From assembly GCA_031276675.1 (NCBI GenBank), contig JAISMO010000130.1, forward strand, positions 1 to 40,254: DNA of 40,254 nucleotides. Direction: 5' to 3'. Numbering within the stretch: the first letter of the stretch is position 1; each line of letters starts with the position of its first letter. A program made the translations under genes and the position numbers. Shown piece by piece: positions 11,826 through 39,412 of this stretch. Source of the stretch: Tannerella sp. (GTDB lineage Bacteria > Bacteroidota > Bacteroidia > Bacteroidales > Tannerellaceae). The notes below the pieces were generated by a model that made no database searches, was not told the origin of the DNA, and saw only the letters and a program-made list of their open reading frames with translations.

Positions 11826-12094
11826 GACCTGCCGCTGTGCACCGGAGGTATCGATCGACCTCTAATGCAGATGTCGACCAGCCTATACACTGGAGGTCGA
11901 TTAACCTGCAGGCTGGAGGTCGATCAACCTGCAGGCTGGAGGTCGATCAACCTGTAAGCTGGAGGTCGATTAACCTGCAGGCTGGAGGTCAATCAACCTG
12001 TAAGCTGGAGGTCGATCAACCTGCAGGCTTGAGGTCAATCAACCTGCAGGCTGGAGGTGGGTTCACCTGTGCACTGGAGACCTGCCGCTGTGCA
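11826..12094. repeat. 23-bp tandem array flanked by 16-bp direct repeats
   Basis: Eight 23-bp units run from 11892 to 12075. Each begins GGAGGTCGATCAACCTG or a near variant and ends GCAGGCT or GTAAGCT; the eighth is more diverged. Looser copies precede them from 11844. Units contain a dyad AGGT-N6-ACCT and often the 8-bp palindrome CCTGCAGG. The block is bracketed by GACCTGCCGCTGTGCA at 11826-11841 and 12079-12094. A 23-bp period is not a multiple of 3, so it is not a repeated peptide. It occupies most of the gap between divergent transcription units (GH3 and sigma operon). Unit sequences vary at a few fixed positions. Confidence 0.9.
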
Positions 12095-12262: not shown

Positions 12263-12766
12263 ATGGACAGAGAAAGATTTAAAACGGATATCCTGTCATT
12301 GCGGCCGGCGATGCTGGCGGTAGCGGTGAAGATGCTCGGCGATGTTGACGACGCGAATGATGCTGTTCAGGAGATCATGCTGCGTATCTGGGAAATGCGC
12401 ATCCGGGTGATGCGGATGACGAACCCCGGAGGATATGCCATGCAGTCGCTGAAGCACTTTTGCATTGACAGACTGCGCACCGAAAAACAGACAGTCGAAC
12501 CGGACGAAGCCGTCTTTGTCTGCGACGATACGCCTTACACCGGAACGGAACAGCGCGACGCCGTCGCCCTCGTCAGACAAATCGTCGCCTCGCTGCCCCG
12601 ACTGCAACGAATGATCATTGAGATGCGTGACATCGAAGGGTATGAACCTGAAGAAATTGCATCCGTGACAGGCATGAGGGTTGCCACAGTAACCGTTAAT
12701 CTTTCGAGAGCAAGGAAAAAAGTACGTGATTCGTTTATTCGGATCAACAGTTATAAAAAGATATAA
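12263..12766 (+). CDS. ECF-type RNA polymerase sigma factor
   Basis: 167 residues, typical ECF length. Region 2: 'MLAVAVKMLGDVDDANDAVQ' followed by 'EIMLRIWEMR', with the core-binding helix and DDA-x2-AVQE motif. Region 4: 'LPRLQRMIIEMRDIEGYEPE' and 'EIASVTGMRVATVTVNLSRA', the -35 recognition helix-turn-helix. Start taken at ATG 12263 ('MDRERFKTD'), after an A-rich stretch; the longer frame from 12188 adds a non-conserved leader and would include the -7 box. Heads a four-gene set with 5-20 nt spacings ending in an outer-membrane protein, so it probably controls an envelope response and its own operon. Confidence 0.9.
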   Translation: MDRERFKTDILSLRPAMLAVAVKMLGDVDDANDAVQEIMLRIWEMRIRVMRMTNPGGYAMQSLKHFCIDRLRTEKQTVEPDEAVFVCDDTPYTGTEQRDAVALVRQIVASLPRLQRMIIEMRDIEGYEPEEIASVTGMRVATVTVNLSRARKKVRDSFIRINSYKKI

Positions 12767-17234: not shown

Positions 17235-17475
17235 GACTGTCCGCCGACTTTCTTCGGTTTATAAAAGTCTCTCGACGACCGTCCGCCGACTTTCTTCGGT
17301 AGATAAAAGTCTCTCGACGACCGTCCGCCAACTTTCTTCGGTCGATTAAAGTCTCTCGACAACTGTCCGCCAACTTTCTTCAGTTGATAAAAGTCTCTCG
17401 ACGACCGTCCGCCGACTTTCTTCGGTCGATTAAAGTCTCCCGACGACCGTCCGCCGATTTTCTTCGGTCGATTAT
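17235..17475. repeat. 42-bp tandem array, about 5.7 units
   Basis: Units at 17235-17276, 17277-17318, 17319-17360, 17361-17402, 17403-17444 and a partial to about 17475. Each has GACCGTCCGCCGACTTTCTT, then CGGTCGAT(A/T)AAAGTC, then TCTCGAC. Arms GACCG and CGGTC pair. The fourth unit changes both arms together, to AACTG and CAGTT. 42 is a multiple of 3 and both strands stay open across the array (minus strand reads a 14-residue repeat containing 'SRDFYLPKKVGG'), but no promoter or start context supports a gene. Lies between the Lrp-type gene and the rhamnosidase. Confidence 0.9.
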
Positions 17476-17779: not shown

Positions 17780-20575
17780 ATGAACCGGAATATAAATTTC
17801 AGCAGATGTGCAGCGAGCATGTGGGCCATCTGCATTTGCCTTTCAGGCGCCTGTACTTCTTCCCCGTCTGTCGGGGATTTGCGTTGTGAATACCTGGCCC
17901 GGCCGGCCGGAATAGATGTACCTCATCCCCGTTTTTCATGGAGCATTGCGGCGAAAGAGCGGGGCGTTTACCAGACGGCTTATCGGTTGATTGTAAGCGA
18001 CAATCCTGCCGATGTGCGAAACAGGCGCGGGAACTGCTGGGATTCGGGAGTGCAGGAATCGGACAATACGATTCAGATAGCGTATGAAGGCGAAGCCCTT
18101 CGCAGCAACTGCTCTTATTTCTGGAGAGTCTGTGCGGTCGTTAATGACAGGGAAGTCTGGAGCGAACCGGCCTTTTTTCATACGGGACTGTTCCGTCAGG
18201 ACGAATGGAAGGCGCAGTGGATCAGTACGGAGGAGGACTTGGAGGGGGCAAGTCCGCTGCTGAGGAATACCTTTGCGGTGGAGCAAAACGTAAGGGAAGC
18301 GTATGCCTTTGTCACGGCCGCAGGGTTTTATGAACTGTATCTGAACGGACAGAAAGTGGGAAACGACAAACTGCATCCTGCGATTACCGATTACCGCAAA
18401 ACACTGCTGTATTCCGTCCATGACGTGACGGCGCTGCTGAAAAAGGGAGAAAATGCACTGGGCGTCATGCTGGGAAACAGCGCATACAATATCTTCAATA
18501 CCGACGGACGCTATGGCTGGAGCGGCGATCCGCGTCTGGGCAATCCCTGCTTTTCGATGCAGGTAAAAATTGTTTACCGGGACGGCAGCGAAAAGCTGGT
18601 ACTTTCCGACGGACAGTGGAAATATGCGTTCGGCCCGGTCACGTTTAACCATATCTATGGCGGCGAGGATTACGATGCCCGCCGGGAAATGACGGGATGG
18701 GCGTCTGCCGGATTCGACGATGCCGGATGGCGCAGGGTGGCGGTGGTTCCAGGCCCGGGTGGCGCCCTGAAATGGCAGTCCGTGCCGATTGAAGTCACGC
18801 AGACTCTTACGCCCGTTACCGGCACGCGCCCGGCCAAAGGCGTCTATCTGTTTGATCTCGGACAGAACATCGTGGGATGGTGGCGCGTGGAAGTGCAGGG
18901 AACGGCCGGACAGACCATCCGGATACGCGGGGCGGAAACGCTGAATGACGCGCTCTTTGCGAAAAATCTGGAACCGGGCGATACCCTGAGCGAAAAGTTC
19001 GACTATCATGCCCGCGTATGGACGGACTATACCCTGAAAGGCAATGAAAAGGAAACATACGAACCGCATTTCTTCTACACCGGTTTCCGTTACGTGGAAG
19101 TAGCCGTTTCCGACGGGCAGGACCTGACAGACCTGAAGATTGAAGGCCGCGTTGTCCGTTCCGCGCTGGACAGAAACGGCGAATGGACGTCTTCCAGTAC
19201 GCTGCTGAACCGGATTCATGAAGCGGGTTTGTGGGCGCAGAAAGGCAACACGGTGGGCTATCCGACCGACTGTCCGCATCGCGAAAAGGGGGCCTATACC
19301 GGCGACGGGCAGGTGATTGCCGAAGCTGCCATGCACGACTTCCAGATGGCTCCCTTCTATTACAAATGGCTCAATGACATGCGTGATGCACAGGAACCCA
19401 ACGGCCGGATTCCCAATACCGCTCCGCCCATTGTCGGCGGGATGGGCGGAGGCGTTGCGTGGGGCAGCGCGTATATTCTGATCCCCTGGTGGATGTATCA
19501 TTATTACGACGATGTGCAAATACTGAACGAGCATTATCCCAACATGAAACGGTATATGGATTATTTAAGAAACCTGGCGCGTATTGACGCCCATCCGGAA
19601 GATCCCCATATCATTGACTATTTCGACGGATACTGGTATTCGCTGGGCGAATGGTGCGCACCGGGAGAGGACGACTGTCCCAACCATGCCGTCGTCAATA
19701 CCTTTTATTATTACTACGACGCCCTCCTGCTGTCGCGGATTGCAGCGGCGCTCGGTCATCCGGATGATGCACGGCACTATCTGTCACTCAGCGATACCGT
19801 CAGGCAGGCGTTTAACAGCAAGTTTTTCTCTGCGGAAACGTTGCTCTACGGTACCGATTCCACCACCTACCAGACCTATCAGCTGCTCGCACTGGTCGGT
19901 GATCTGGTGCCGAAGGAATATCGCGAAGGCGTGTTAAACACGGTCATCACCGATCTCCAGCGTCGGGACAATCATCTGAACACCGGCATCATCGGAACAA
20001 AATACCTCTGGCCCGTGCTGTCCGACGCAGGCTATCATGACCTTGCCTGTTCGGTAGCCACGCAGGAAACGTATCCGGGTTTCGGCTACTGGATTAACAA
20101 TCATGCCACCACCCTGCTGGAAAAATGGGAAGGTGAAAACTCGCACAACCATCAGATGTTCGGCTCCATCACGGAGTACTTCTACCGGTATCTGGCAGGC
20201 ATTCGATCGCCCCTGGAGGGAAAGACGACAAACGGATACAGGCATGTACATCTGCATCCCTGTATGCCTGCCGGTCTTCAAATGGCGAAAGCCTCGCTGC
20301 AAATGCTGCCGGGACGGATCACCTCCGGATGGGAACGCCAAAATGACGGGCAATACAGCTATGAAGTGTCGCTGCCGGCCAATACATCGGCTACCGTTTT
20401 CCTGCCGACAGATTCATTATCGAAGATCAGACTGACCGAAAGCGACGAAGTGGTATGGCAGAACGGCGCCTTTGTGAGCGGCGTGCCCGGCGTCTGGGAC
20501 GTCACGGCCTGCGGACAGGGACTGTGTCTGTCGCTCGCATCCGGAGATTACCGGTTTAACTTGCGTTCGGAGTAG
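17780..20575 (+). CDS. Alpha-L-rhamnosidase, GH78 family lipoprotein
   Basis: 931 residues. Hydrolyses terminal alpha-L-rhamnose from plant or microbial glycans. The N-terminus is a lipoprotein signal with lipobox 'LSGAC' (Cys near residue 25), so the enzyme is lipid-anchored, probably at the cell surface or periplasmic face. Domains in order: fibronectin-like beta domain ('LRCEYLARPAGIDVPHPRFSW'-type opening of the family), jelly-roll N-domain ('AYAFVTAAGFYELYLNGQKV'), then the (alpha/alpha)6 catalytic domain with 'YPTDCPHREKGAYTGDGQ' near residue 495, corresponding to the conserved DCPxRxE...GWxGD stretch, and a C-terminal beta domain. No SusC/SusD genes are adjacent, so it is not part of a visible polysaccharide utilisation locus. 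Confidence 0.92.
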   Translation: MNRNINFSRCAASMWAICICLSGACTSSPSVGDLRCEYLARPAGIDVPHPRFSWSIAAKERGVYQTAYRLIVSDNPADVRNRRGNCWDSGVQESDNTIQIAYEGEALRSNCSYFWRVCAVVNDREVWSEPAFFHTGLFRQDEWKAQWISTEEDLEGASPLLRNTFAVEQNVREAYAFVTAAGFYELYLNGQKVGNDKLHPAITDYRKTLLYSVHDVTALLKKGENALGVMLGNSAYNIFNTDGRYGWSGDPRLGNPCFSMQVKIVYRDGSEKLVLSDGQWKYAFGPVTFNHIYGGEDYDARREMTGWASAGFDDAGWRRVAVVPGPGGALKWQSVPIEVTQTLTPVTGTRPAKGVYLFDLGQNIVGWWRVEVQGTAGQTIRIRGAETLNDALFAKNLEPGDTLSEKFDYHARVWTDYTLKGNEKETYEPHFFYTGFRYVEVAVSDGQDLTDLKIEGRVVRSALDRNGEWTSSSTLLNRIHEAGLWAQKGNTVGYPTDCPHREKGAYTGDGQVIAEAAMHDFQMAPFYYKWLNDMRDAQEPNGRIPNTAPPIVGGMGGGVAWGSAYILIPWWMYHYYDDVQILNEHYPNMKRYMDYLRNLARIDAHPEDPHIIDYFDGYWYSLGEWCAPGEDDCPNHAVVNTFYYYYDALLLSRIAAALGHPDDARHYLSLSDTVRQAFNSKFFSAETLLYGTDSTTYQTYQLLALVGDLVPKEYREGVLNTVITDLQRRDNHLNTGIIGTKYLWPVLSDAGYHDLACSVATQETYPGFGYWINNHATTLLEKWEGENSHNHQMFGSITEYFYRYLAGIRSPLEGKTTNGYRHVHLHPCMPAGLQMAKASLQMLPGRITSGWERQNDGQYSYEVSLPANTSATVFLPTDSLSKIRLTESDEVVWQNGAFVSGVPGVWDVTACGQGLCLSLASGDYRFNLRSE

Positions 20576-27255: not shown

Positions 27256-27286
27256 TTTGTTTTATGTTGGAAAGTAAATATATTTG
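27256..27286 (+). promoter_or_regulatory. Full Bacteroidota promoter upstream of array 1
   Basis: -33 TTTG at 27256-27259 and -7 TATATTTG at 27279-27286, spacer 19 nt, matching the consensus at both boxes. The predicted start is near 27292, so the transcript would run through the array and into the gene at 27810. Confidence 0.7.
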
Positions 27287-27313
27287 CTCCGAATAAAAAA
27301 AAACTGTAACCCA

Positions 27314-27772
27314 ATGCCGAACAGTGTGAATCGGAAACAGGACCGAGTGTTCAGAAAGATCAACGGACGGATAGCGACAAAACGGCCGTCTTTCATTGAT
27401 GCGGAGCGGAATTTCGCCCTTCGTGTCCGTCATGCGCATCCTTCGGCAATCGCTTTTTTTTTCCGCATCGGAGTTTATACGCCGGCGCCGCAAAGTTTCG
27501 GCGTCACCTGTGCCGGAGCATCGGGCGCCGGTTGCCGGGAACCGGACGCCGGTTATCGGGAACCGGATGCCAATTGTTGGGAACCGGATGCCAATCGTCG
27601 GGAACTGGATGCCGGTTATTGGGAACCGGATGCCGGTTATCGGGAACCGGATGCCAATCGTCGGGAACCGGATGCCGGTTATCGGGAACTGGATGCCAAT
27701 TGTTGGGAACCGGATGCCGATCGTCGGGCGCCGGGCGCTGGCGAGTGTGGAATCAGCTATTCAAATAAATAA
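27314..27772 (+). CDS. Possible array-encoded repeat protein, module 1
   Basis: An ATG at 27314 sits about 21 nt after the predicted transcription start. The frame runs 152 residues: a basic N-terminal half ('[20 protein letters not shown]'), then about nine 7-residue repeats of the type [28 protein letters not shown], and a stop 37 nt before the next gene. All three forward frames are open through the array (others read GNRMPIV and GTGCRLS), so coding is not proven by openness alone. The GNRMPIV frame is in phase with the following gene with no stop between, so a longer fusion (from 27396) is a third possibility. Confidence 0.3.
27537..27725. repeat. 21-bp tandem array 1, nine units
   Basis: Nine units of exactly 21 bp (27537, 27558, 27579, 27600, 27621, 27642, 27663, 27684, 27705). 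The first 14 bases are near-constant, GGGAACCGGATGCC. The last 7 alternate among GGTTATC, AATTGTT, AATCGTC, GGTTATT and GATCGTC. Where the tail is GGTTATC, AACCGG-ATG-CCGGTT is a perfect inverted repeat. Diverged half-units flank it (27522-27536 and after 27726). Confidence 0.92.
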
Positions 27773-27809
27773 CAAACGACTTTATATTAATAATTTAAAA
27801 ACAGAAGAG

Positions 27810-28487
27810 ATGAGTAAAAAGAATTATTTACCCAAGAACATTGTTAAGTTAATTGACTGGGCGGTCCGGTTTTTCGCATACCTGAACGCGCATTATACCC
27901 AGTGGAAAGTGGACAGCATCCTTGTCCAGGAGACCGAAACCAAATTTACCGACATGCGTACGGCCTACGAGACGTACAGCAAGCCGGAAACCCATTCGCC
28001 GATGTATCACGACGCCATGATGAAGAAGAAGAAAATTTTTGTCGAAGCCGTCCAGCAGCTGGCTCAGTATCTGTCTCACAACCCCTACCTCGAACCGGAG
28101 GACTTTGACGGACTGGACATCAATCCGCCCAGTCGGGGGCCGTATCCGCGGCATCCGCGGCCGCACACGTCGCCCAAGATGCGTTTTGCCGTCGGTGAAG
28201 AACACGGCTGGGTCTATCTCCATTTCTGGGACGAAATGAGCGAAGGCTCGAAGGCCAAACCCTTCGGCACGCAGGGCGCCGAAATCCGGTATCTCGTCTG
28301 CAAGCCGGGCGAAGAACCCAAGTCGGTCGAAGATTTGACCGGTTCCGAATTTGCCACCCGCACGCCTTATCTCTTCGAATTTTCCGACCGGCAGGCGGGC
28401 CTGATCCTCTGCGTCGCCATGCGCTGGGAGAATACCCGCGGCGAAAAAGGACCCTGGTCGCACATCGAAACCGTCGTCATCCCGTAA
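27810..28487 (+). CDS. Uncharacterised helical plus Ig/FN3-like protein, module 1
   Basis: 225 residues, no signal peptide. An N-terminal helical half (about 1-105: 'NIVKLIDWAVRFFAYLNAHY', 'ETETKFTDMRTAYETY', 'KKIFVEAVQQLAQYL') is followed by a Pro-rich hinge 'DINPPSRGPYPRHPRP' and a beta-rich C-terminal half with 'KAKPFGTQGAEIRYLV', 'ATRTPYLFEF', 'AMRWENTRGEKGPWS'. The end pattern (TRTPY, then RW-N-RGEKGPWS) recalls an uncharacterised family I have seen as hypothetical proteins in Bacteroidota and other phyla. A clear paralogue lies at 38396-39058. Start 'MSKKNYLPKN' is the first Met after the array frame. Function unknown. Confidence 0.8.
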   Translation: MSKKNYLPKNIVKLIDWAVRFFAYLNAHYTQWKVDSILVQETETKFTDMRTAYETYSKPETHSPMYHDAMMKKKKIFVEAVQQLAQYLSHNPYLEPEDFDGLDINPPSRGPYPRHPRPHTSPKMRFAVGEEHGWVYLHFWDEMSEGSKAKPFGTQGAEIRYLVCKPGEEPKSVEDLTGSEFATRTPYLFEFSDRQAGLILCVAMRWENTRGEKGPWSHIETVVIP

Positions 28488-28735
28488 ACAGTGAACAGTG
28501 AATAGTGAATAGTGAACAGTGGTTAGCGGTTAGTGGTTAGTGGTTAGTGATGAACGGTGAACGATTACCGATTTCATATCACTAATCACTGTTCACTAAT
28601 CACTAACCGCTAATCACTAACCACTAACCACTAACCACTAACCACTAATCACTAATCACTAATCACTAATCACTATTCACTATTCACTATTCACTATTCA
28701 CTAACCACTAATCACTAACCACTAACCACTCATAC
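28488..28735. repeat. Heptamer repeat block forming a very large hairpin
   Basis: The left part (28488-28560) is heptamers of the type AGTGAAT, AGTGGTT, AGCGGTT. The right part (about 28576-28735) is the complementary type CACTAAC, CACTAAT, CACTATT, CACTGTT, over 20 copies. AGCGGTTAGTG on the left pairs with CACTAACCGCT on the right. A spacer of about 18 nt lies between. Begins directly after the stop of the module 1 gene. Confidence 0.9.
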
Positions 28736-28736
28736 T

Positions 28737-28758
28737 AAAACGGGCTGCCGTCCGTTTT
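28737..28758 (+). terminator. Short hairpin before the polymerase-like gene
   Basis: AAAACGG (28737-28743) pairs with CCGTTTT (28752-28758), 8-nt loop. May end transcription coming through the heptamer block. Confidence 0.4.
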
Positions 28759-38395: not shown

Positions 38396-39058
38396 TTACG
38401 AAAGGAACACGCTGACGACAGGCCCCCACGGTCCTCTTTTGCCGGTCGGGTTGACCCATGCGGCAACGAGGTGGAGTATTTTACCCGCGCGGTCGGACGG
38501 GAACACAACGCGGTGCGGCGTGCGCGTGAGGGTGAGCGGCGTTTCCGTCAGATCGTCGACCGATGTCGGCGTTTCCTCCGCGAAGCCCATCCTTACGATG
38601 GCTTCATGCACGCCGCGGGGTTTGGCCCTCGACAGGGGCGTGTTCACGTCGCGATAGTGAATATCCGCCGTGCACTGTCCGTGTACCTCCACCGTCAGCA
38701 GCGGCCAGGTCTCCGGTGGCGGAAAAGCCGGACCAGGCCCCTTCGACGGCGGTGCAATCTGTAGCAAGTTGTAGTCCTGCGGCGTCAGCGTCGGCAACGT
38801 CCTTAAATTCTGTATCATCGGCTCCACGGCGTGCACAAACAGCTGCCGTTTCTCCTCCATGAGCGTATGTGCCGCCTTTGTTCTTGTGGCAGGATTCACC
38901 CACGTGGCATGTGCATTCTGCAGGTCCGTAAATTTGTTTTCCACCTCGGTGACCCATGTGGCGCTTATACCCCACGTCGCCATATGGGCTTTCAGGCAGG
39001 TGAAAAATGAGATCGCCCATGCGATCAACTGTTCAATGTTCCCTTTCAAAACGTTCAT
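38396..39058 (-). CDS. Uncharacterised helical plus Ig/FN3-like protein, module 2
   Basis: 220 residues; paralogue of 27810-28487 with the same two-part build. Shared landmarks: 'NIEQLIAWAISFFTCLKAH' (NI-LI-WA-FF-L-AH), 'VENKFTDLQNAHATW' (KFTD), 'FVHAV', 'LQIAPPSKGPGPAFPPPETW' (I-PPS-GP-P-P), 'SRAKPRGVHEAIVRM' (AKP-G), 'SVDDLTETPLTLTRTPH' (SV-DLT, TRTP), and 'AAWVNPTGKRGPWGPV' (W-N-G-GPW). Outside these it has diverged strongly. No signal peptide or membrane helix is evident. ATG 39058 is the first Met of this half; the stop of the upstream repeat frame is at 39119-39121, 60 nt before. Function unknown. Confidence 0.8.
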   Translation of the reverse strand: MNVLKGNIEQLIAWAISFFTCLKAHMATWGISATWVTEVENKFTDLQNAHATWVNPATRTKAAHTLMEEKRQLFVHAVEPMIQNLRTLPTLTPQDYNLLQIAPPSKGPGPAFPPPETWPLLTVEVHGQCTADIHYRDVNTPLSRAKPRGVHEAIVRMGFAEETPTSVDDLTETPLTLTRTPHRVVFPSDRAGKILHLVAAWVNPTGKRGPWGPVVSVFLS

Positions 39059-39118: not shown

Positions 39119-39412
39119 TCAGCTTTTCATTTGCGAAAGAGAAAGATTCAACCGACCGGTTGAGAAACTTTCCCTCGAAGGAGAAAGCATTTCCTTCGAA
39201 GGAGAAAAACTTTCCTTCGAAGGAGAAAAAGTTTCCTTCGAAGGAGAAAGCGTTTCCCTCGAAGGAGAAAAAGTCTCCTTCGAAGGAGAAAAAGTTTTCC
39301 TCGAAGGAGAAAGCGTTTCCTTCAAGGTTGAGAAACTCTCCTTTAAAGAAGAAGGACTCAACCTTAAAGTTGAAAGATTTTTTTTCGAAAATGAAAGATT
39401 GACTTTTACCAT
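39119..39412 (-). CDS. Possible array-encoded heptad-repeat protein, module 2
   Basis: 97 residues from ATG 39412, about 22 nt after the predicted transcription start. The whole chain is built of 7-residue units: VNLSFSK, KNLSTLR, LSPSSLK, ESFSTLK, ETLSPSR, KTFSPSK, ETFSPSR and so on, to ESFSTGR, LNLSLSQ. The hydrophobic-Ser pair and the closing Lys/Arg persist into the diverged end units, hinting that the peptide pattern may matter. The other strand also reads open (FPSKEKA/FPSKEKK), as expected for palindromic units, so coding is not proven. Rich in Ser, Lys and Thr; no known family. In frame with the downstream gene but separated by TGA. Confidence 0.35.
   Translation of the reverse strand: MVKVNLSFSKKNLSTLRLSPSSLKESFSTLKETLSPSRKTFSPSKETFSPSRETLSPSKETFSPSKESFSPSKEMLSPSRESFSTGRLNLSLSQMKS
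39160..39390. repeat. 21-bp tandem array 2, eleven units
   Basis: Units of exactly 21 bp start at 39160, 39181, 39202, 39223, 39244, 39265, 39286, 39307, 39328, 39349 and 39370. Central units contain GAGAAA, then TTTCCTTCGAAGG across the junction, where TCCTTCGAAGGA is a perfect palindrome. End units differ in sequence yet keep dyads: TCAACC-GACC-GGTTGA at 39148-39163, CTTTAAAG near 39341-39348, TCAAC-N6-GTTGA near 39359-39374, and TTTTCGAAAA near 39382-39391. Confidence 0.92.

Follow-up and report, generated by a model that had tools for sequence, protein, structure and literature searches.

A family of helical-bundle and FN3 protein genes lying behind 21-bp tandem arrays in Tannerella and its relatives, with gene-less cognate arrays in the same genome

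Two kinds of described sequence come closest to the locus studied here. Constant-size bacterial satellites are non-coding tandem arrays of fixed unit length (20-21 or 52 nt) and unconserved sequence, with several families per genome, and are found in many bacterial groups (Subirana and Messeguer, PMC8161180). The portion of that study drawn on here names no partner gene and, for the 52-nt class, states that evidence for a Cas-like protein is lacking (PMC8161180). BrickBuilt, from Porphyromonas gingivalis, is a minisatellite of 23-nt units embedded in a MITE; its ends are small inverted repeats, it has target duplications of 4 bases, and the portion of its account used here describes no gene of its own (PMC4596501).

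We analyzed a window of 40,254 nucleotides, a single stretch of contig JAISMO010000130.1 from a Tannerella sp. assembly (GCA_031276675.1), in which a 21-bp array precedes a gene for a helical-bundle and FN3 protein at two places. The features of these two modules are as follows.

27256..27286, + strand: module 1 promoter, TTTG-N19-TATATTTG, with TTTG at 27256-27259 and TATATTTG at 27279-27286 (read directly)
27287..27526, + strand: leader between promoter and array; 27269-27526 is also present in the gene-less copy L312
27527..27728, + strand: 21-bp tandem array, 9.6 copies (TRF)
27729..27809, + strand: spacer between array and start codon, 81 bp
27810..28487, + strand: gene for a 225-aa helical-bundle and FN3 protein (fold from AlphaFold)
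38396..39058, - strand: module 2, paralogous gene, 220 aa (translation and protein comparison)
39165..39343, - strand: module 2, 21-bp array, 7.8 copies (TRF)

The first-pass annotation of this DNA had placed the promoter, array, and gene of module 1 where direct reading, TRF, and translation also put them. The promoter, which we take to follow the Bacteroidota-type consensus, lies ~523 bp 5' of the ATG at 27810. The array scores 243 in TRF, or 323 when read as a 63-bp higher-order unit. The same annotation had described module 2 as repeating this order with an unrelated unit and a divergent paralogue, and we found the same: the two proteins share 38% identity over 223 aligned positions, and the two arrays have no BLAST similarity at E<=1e-6. 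A comparison of the window with 4227 Rfam families gave no RNA leader or riboswitch match above the gathering score. As a separate observation, 7-bp repeat blocks run from the stop codon of the first gene onward (28487-28738); 7 of 159 family genes have stretches of this kind no more than 300 nt from the stop, compared with 0 of 130 and 1 of 94 control windows.

The arrays resemble constant-size satellites in their fixed size (the smallest TRF period is 21 in 110 of the 131 upstream arrays described below), in the unlike units within one genome, and in being non-coding. They differ in that the 21-bp class here is tied to one protein superfamily, mostly with one unit per gene. With BrickBuilt, the modules share a spacer-less head-to-tail array with leader and tail flanks, an intergenic position, many copies, and occurrence in Bacteroidales. 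However, BrickBuilt is one element with a 23-nt unit, which is absent from the family arrays with their period of 21, whereas here the units are unlike between families and one copy bears a gene. CRISPR arrays also consist of direct repeats of similar length, some with dyads, but they carry unique spacers, while the family arrays have none and nearly every locus has its own repeat. We considered a CRISPR array and rejected it, as the units stand head-to-tail without unique spacers.

AlphaFold predicts that the 225-aa protein consists of an N-terminal helical bundle and an FN3 domain, with the FN3 beta-sandwich present. The protein matched no Pfam or NCBIfam family at E<=1, PF00041 included; a relative, L259, does match PF00041 (32.6 bits versus a cutoff of 25). 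The module 1 protein differs from FN3 (PF00041) by its N-terminal helical bundle and by having no evident export signal. Residues 1-105 have structural matches among Avd/S23-type helical bundles (4dwl, 8ub7, and 2rld) that lie within the background for bundles; Avd is an accessory protein of diversity-generating retroelements. The family protein is neutral (median pI 7.0), and we found in it no nucleic-acid-binding fold above background and no recombinase or transposase domain.

The source genome (G000; 2.9 Mb, 93.7% complete) holds 19 family matches at E<=0.01 in a protein search that includes the query, and 23 with profile A1. Upstream of 17 of these 19 loci, TRF found an array of ~20-21 bp or multiples of it. 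The exceptions are L012, a fragment in a foreign frame with no array, and L015, which is without upstream sequence; the array of L010 is cut by the contig end at 2.5 copies. For a larger set, we added 80 regions from relatives, taken in list order among ~150 matches listed and full-length with upstream room, and 80 named loci, kept of 315 found. The named relatives are MAGs titled Tannerella sp., Tannerellaceae, Prevotellaceae, Dysgonamonadaceae, Proteiniphilum, Candidatus Symbiothrix, Bacteroidales, and Planctomycetaceae, a series that presumably comes from termite guts. The resulting 206 loci represent 169 different genes, of which 163 have the N terminus and 135 have at least 450 bp of upstream sequence.

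With an array defined by a TRF period of at least 10 and a score of at least 50 within 700 bp upstream, 131 of these 135 genes have one, and L058, L200, L090, and L046 do not. The first-pass annotation's pairing of array and gene, to be dropped if most homologues had no array in front, holds up on this count. A strict rule (period 19-23, 40-45, or 61-66, score 100, 63 bp) still finds an array upstream of 123 of the 135. The sequence upstream of family genes (101,272 bp) contains 168 21-like arrays, or 1.66 per kb; the rest of the 172 non-redundant loci (709,052 bp) contains 32, or 0.045 per kb, a 37-fold lower density. Among control non-family open reading frames, an array of any of the strict-rule classes lies within 700 bp of 10 of 93 in the source genome (control stretches plus the window) and 6 of 83 in genome G220; the counts for G315 and G030 are 1 of 89 and 10 of 68, respectively. 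The array ends a median of 71 bp before the start codon (125 loci), and its copy number ranges from 2 to 18.5 between loci. One family module has, in addition, a 389-bp tandem duplication upstream of it (L017:1-737).

The family has a match in 26 of the 37 genomes of the genus that were examined, the source genome included, and, among other families of the order, in 1 of 24 genomes (G038). Across 296 genomes of the phylum, a further search located it in four others, with 19 loci in total. In G220, 21-bp arrays precede 8 of 10 genes (none at L208 and L212). G315 has them at three full-length genes and a weak one of 2.9 copies at a fourth (L217), and at L220 and L223 the arrays lie only beyond the gene. 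The single gene of G232 and the two of G327 have no upstream array. The array itself was the route to a related type of protein: the sole array in 100 kb of G315 controls precedes L259, which encodes 209 aa with a helical N terminus and FN3. Profile comparison joins this type to the family (193 columns, probability 94.8%, E 4.9e-8), with five rows only on one side. Among its six full-length loci, of which L267 is L259 itself, L268 has arrays of 21/42/84 bp, L269 of 42/84 bp, and L277 a weak one; L270 and L271 have none.

The association extends to MAGs named Planctomycetaceae. Where the upstream sequence is long enough, an array is present at 5 of 5 such family loci (just 2.6 copies at L152) and at 42 of 43 Bacteroidota-named loci, and the eight Planctomycetaceae-named proteins form one clade. 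We also searched 149 genomes from the phylum of G360, the Planctomycetaceae-named genome that carries L169, and found four full-length genes. The three in G425 all have 21-bp units in 10-13 copies, and the one in G410 has a 44-bp unit in 3.5 copies. A rough 16S comparison separates G356, G366, G410, and G425 from the Bacteroidota rows G030 and G186. Full-length family members on five IMG/VR contigs (L305-L309) have an upstream array in 0 of 5 cases. The period of ~21 persists in both Bacteroidota and Planctomycetaceae-named MAGs while the unit sequences vary between loci.

That variation is extensive, as the unit differs at nearly every locus. Among the 17 family arrays of the source genome, a single pair, L011 with L019, shows a match at E<=1e-30, and 5 of 17 have a match at E<=1e-6. 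Units can be unlike even between close relatives: L054 and L055 are 82.5 and 80.1% identical to L005 in DNA sequence and have units unlike its own, and L009 and L010 are 88% identical with unlike arrays, although only 49 bp of the L010 array are present.

Paralogues mostly have their own units, and several have an array, leader, or tail of the same unit, without a gene, in intergenic gaps of the same genome. The array of L003 occurs at five further places genome-wide with no family gene within ~1.5 kb. Four of the five share a sharp left end ~12 bp before the array and a tail of ~60 bp, after which they diverge; the fifth (L340) shares only 79 bp of array. Between the flanks of five L003-type copies, CTTTTT and CAAAAA are the only shared words of at least 6 bases, with no target duplication or clear terminal repeat seen at that length. 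The leader and array of module 1 (27269-27738) recur once, without the gene, on contig C178, the only further place in the genome for this array (C178:15772-15960); BLAST aligns the leader-bearing copy L312 with 27269-27655 at 75% over 387 bp. The leader of L018 (422 bp, 85%) recurs at L247:14078-14499 and stops just before the putative TTG start of a putative prfA; this prfA may now be expressed from a family leader with array. L248 shares the array alone. Both orientations occur among the gene-less copies, some of which sit in convergent gaps, and often they do not face a gene start.

Between loci, segments of array plus gene (36 pairs, at least 78% identity) often break off at the stop codon on one side and in or close to the array on the other. 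None of 21 testable pairs has an upstream neighbor in common, and 2 of 27 have a downstream one in common; the pairs overlap and the flanks are short in this comparison. These unlike neighborhoods support, short of proof, the view that the modules move.

We measured how often gene-less arrays have a family counterpart in an unselected sample of the source genome, 18 contigs (175,967 bp) from which family genes are absent. This sample held 13 arrays: six of 41-42 bp, four of 23 bp, and three of 21 bp. Adding L247 and L248, gene-less 21-bp arrays from earlier stretches, brings the 21-bp class to five; for four of these the closest match is the array of a single family gene in this genome (L018, L016, L003, and L003; 82-88%, E<=3e-35), ahead of any array from another genome. 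The remaining one, L315, matched no family array, nor did any of the 23-bp (n = 9) and 42-bp (n = 10) arrays of this genome that were compared. This contrast between classes comes partly from their differing periods, so the family arrays of other genomes are the fairer baseline: 6 of 106 match a family array of the source genome at E<=1e-30, and most of these six come from close relatives of the genes concerned. In other genomes of the genus, for each of which only part of the family arrays could be compared, cognates were found for 2 of 2 arrays in G009, 1 of 1 in G016, 0 of 1 in G031, and 0 of 1 in G018. For the genus as a whole, the tally is 7 of 10 unselected gene-less 21-bp arrays whose best match is one family array of their own genome, and the other 23- and 42-bp arrays match in 0 of 4 cases (0 of 23 with those of the source genome). 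In G220, a cognate exists for 1 of 5 further 21-bp arrays (L256, matching L226); the two in L252 and those in L254 and L257 are without, and the L257 array and one of the L252 arrays precede open reading frames that look like distant kin. The one 42-bp array of G220 has no family match.

The other size classes have features of their own. In the window, a 23-bp array (11890-12058) lies upstream of a putative sigma-factor-like gene at 12263, and a 42-bp array (17235-17474) lies upstream of a 931-aa gene at 17780. The 23-bp class, separate from the 21-bp class, recalls the 23-nt unit of BrickBuilt. The 42-bp class forms dispersed sequence families of its own (e.g., L251, L320, and L329, at 88-93%). 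Genome G030, of the same genus, is a single contig with no family matches, and its 80 kb of controls (L263-L266) contain no 21-bp arrays and 13 of the 40-42-bp class. Arrays of 41/82 bp precede the same 309-aa gene, putatively RluA-like, in two genomes of the genus (L243:4562-4981 and L245:4677-4890).

The explanation we favor, tentatively and at somewhat less than an even chance, is that 27256-28487 is the gene-bearing copy of a BrickBuilt-like satellite element whose helical-FN3 protein acts on cognate arrays. The promoter would give a transcript with a non-coding leader that holds the array, its 21 bp equal to two helical turns, followed by the gene. The product would be a neutral, apparently cytosolic helical-bundle and FN3 protein. 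The array would be a cis site at which this product, alone or with a host partner, exerts feedback on its own leader; the product would also act in trans on the gene-less copies. The module would then relate to these copies as an autonomous element does to its MITEs, and the copies may have spread by the element's own mechanism, with the two-turn spacing held and the sequence drifting locus by locus.

We regard the gene product as the best candidate for a trans-acting partner of the cognate arrays, a role weakened by its neutral charge, the fast drift of the units, and the array-less homologues. The unlike arrays of the near-identical L009 and L010 and the unlike units of L005 versus L054 and L055 make sequence-specific binding hard. 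Also counting against this explanation are the further array classes (23 and 42 bp) of the source genome, some near ordinary genes, and the rarity of cognates in G220. To these come the negative results for a nucleic-acid-binding fold above background in the protein and, at words of 6 bases or more, for target duplications or clear terminal repeats in L003-type copies.

A broader version, which we consider speculative and give less credence, holds that each helical-FN3 protein has a 21-bp satellite family to itself, made up of one array in its own transcribed leader and others in trans that lack a gene. The protein would maintain or spread the arrays by reading their two-turn spacing and not a fixed sequence, in a selfish or chromosome-organizing system. 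If spacing and not sequence is read, the units could drift freely and the period would persist across phyla.

Beside the satellite-element explanation, we weighed control by RNA, a live if doubtful rival. The 21-nt units would form hairpins in the 5' UTR whose number tunes expression of the gene, consistent with the wide range in copy number, and the gene-less copies would be by-products of duplication. The position of promoters fits this idea. In 125 loci, the full consensus occurs 25 times within 300 bp upstream of the array, once inside it, and never between array and ATG, compared with 0.2, 0.15, and 0.1 expected; a relaxed form gives 35, 1, and 0 in the same zones versus 0.9, 0.5, and 0.3. 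The consensus was unseen in the remaining loci. Promoters upstream of the array and never between array and gene, as the first-pass annotation had read module 1, suggest that the array is probably transcribed as part of the leader where the start is readable. Arrays also fold better than unit-permuted versions (mean z -2.04 on the sense strand, 54% below -1.65), with weak sense-strand covariation (mean z -0.33, s.e. 0.15). However, folding shows no preference for the sense strand; the antisense folds at least as well (44 lower, 75 higher). Nor would a hairpin call for a fixed period alongside a free sequence, and the gene-less copies in convergent gaps also speak against an RNA leader.

Passive accumulation is the other live rival, which we judge unlikely. 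Genome-wide replication or recombination would yield fixed-size arrays (21, 23, and 41-42 bp) in tolerant intergenic DNA, and fast-changing, dispensable genes would tolerate them in their leaders. The 13 arrays of the unselected sample, with several size classes near ordinary genes, are in line with this, as is G030 with its 40-42-bp arrays in a genome without the family. Passive accumulation does not predict a 21-bp preference for one superfamily across orders and a second phylum, cognates in the same genome, or the constant side and distance of the array.

Less probable again is that an unrelated regulator or nucleoid protein binds the arrays at two-turn spacing, with the family genes as its regulon. 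A period of two helical turns and the strand symmetry would suit operator sites, and dyads within units are enriched in the set as a whole, without being present in every unit (27 of 119 at p<=0.05, 15 at p<=0.01). However, with another unit at nearly every paralogue, a single regulator would need no sequence preference. The arrays also lie downstream of the promoter, and many gene-less copies face no gene start.

That the array codes for a peptide built of seven-residue repeats is hardly credible: open frames across arrays are somewhat more common than in permuted arrays (420 versus 339.5 of 714), but the excess is on both strands (219 versus 172 and 212 versus 182, each of 357), variation has no codon periodicity (1.467 versus 1.546 expected), the path from array start to ATG is stop-free in the gene frame in 8 of 119 arrays, and periods of 20 and 22 also occur. 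The arrays are non-coding. In module 1, a frame with a TTG start and an internal ATG at 27314 (27284-27772) spans the array, and the gene frame is also open across it (27396-28487). Among the three mechanisms first put forward, the translated peptide lacks support, and the two that may hold are control by RNA structure and action of the gene product on the DNA array.

Constant-size, free-sequence bacterial satellites have so far been described without a function or protein partner. A superfamily that nearly always lies behind such an array, with gene-less cognates in the same genome, would provide the first candidate protein partners and a testable question. The array rule also offers a simple means to find and group many hypothetical FN3-like genes in gut Bacteroidota.
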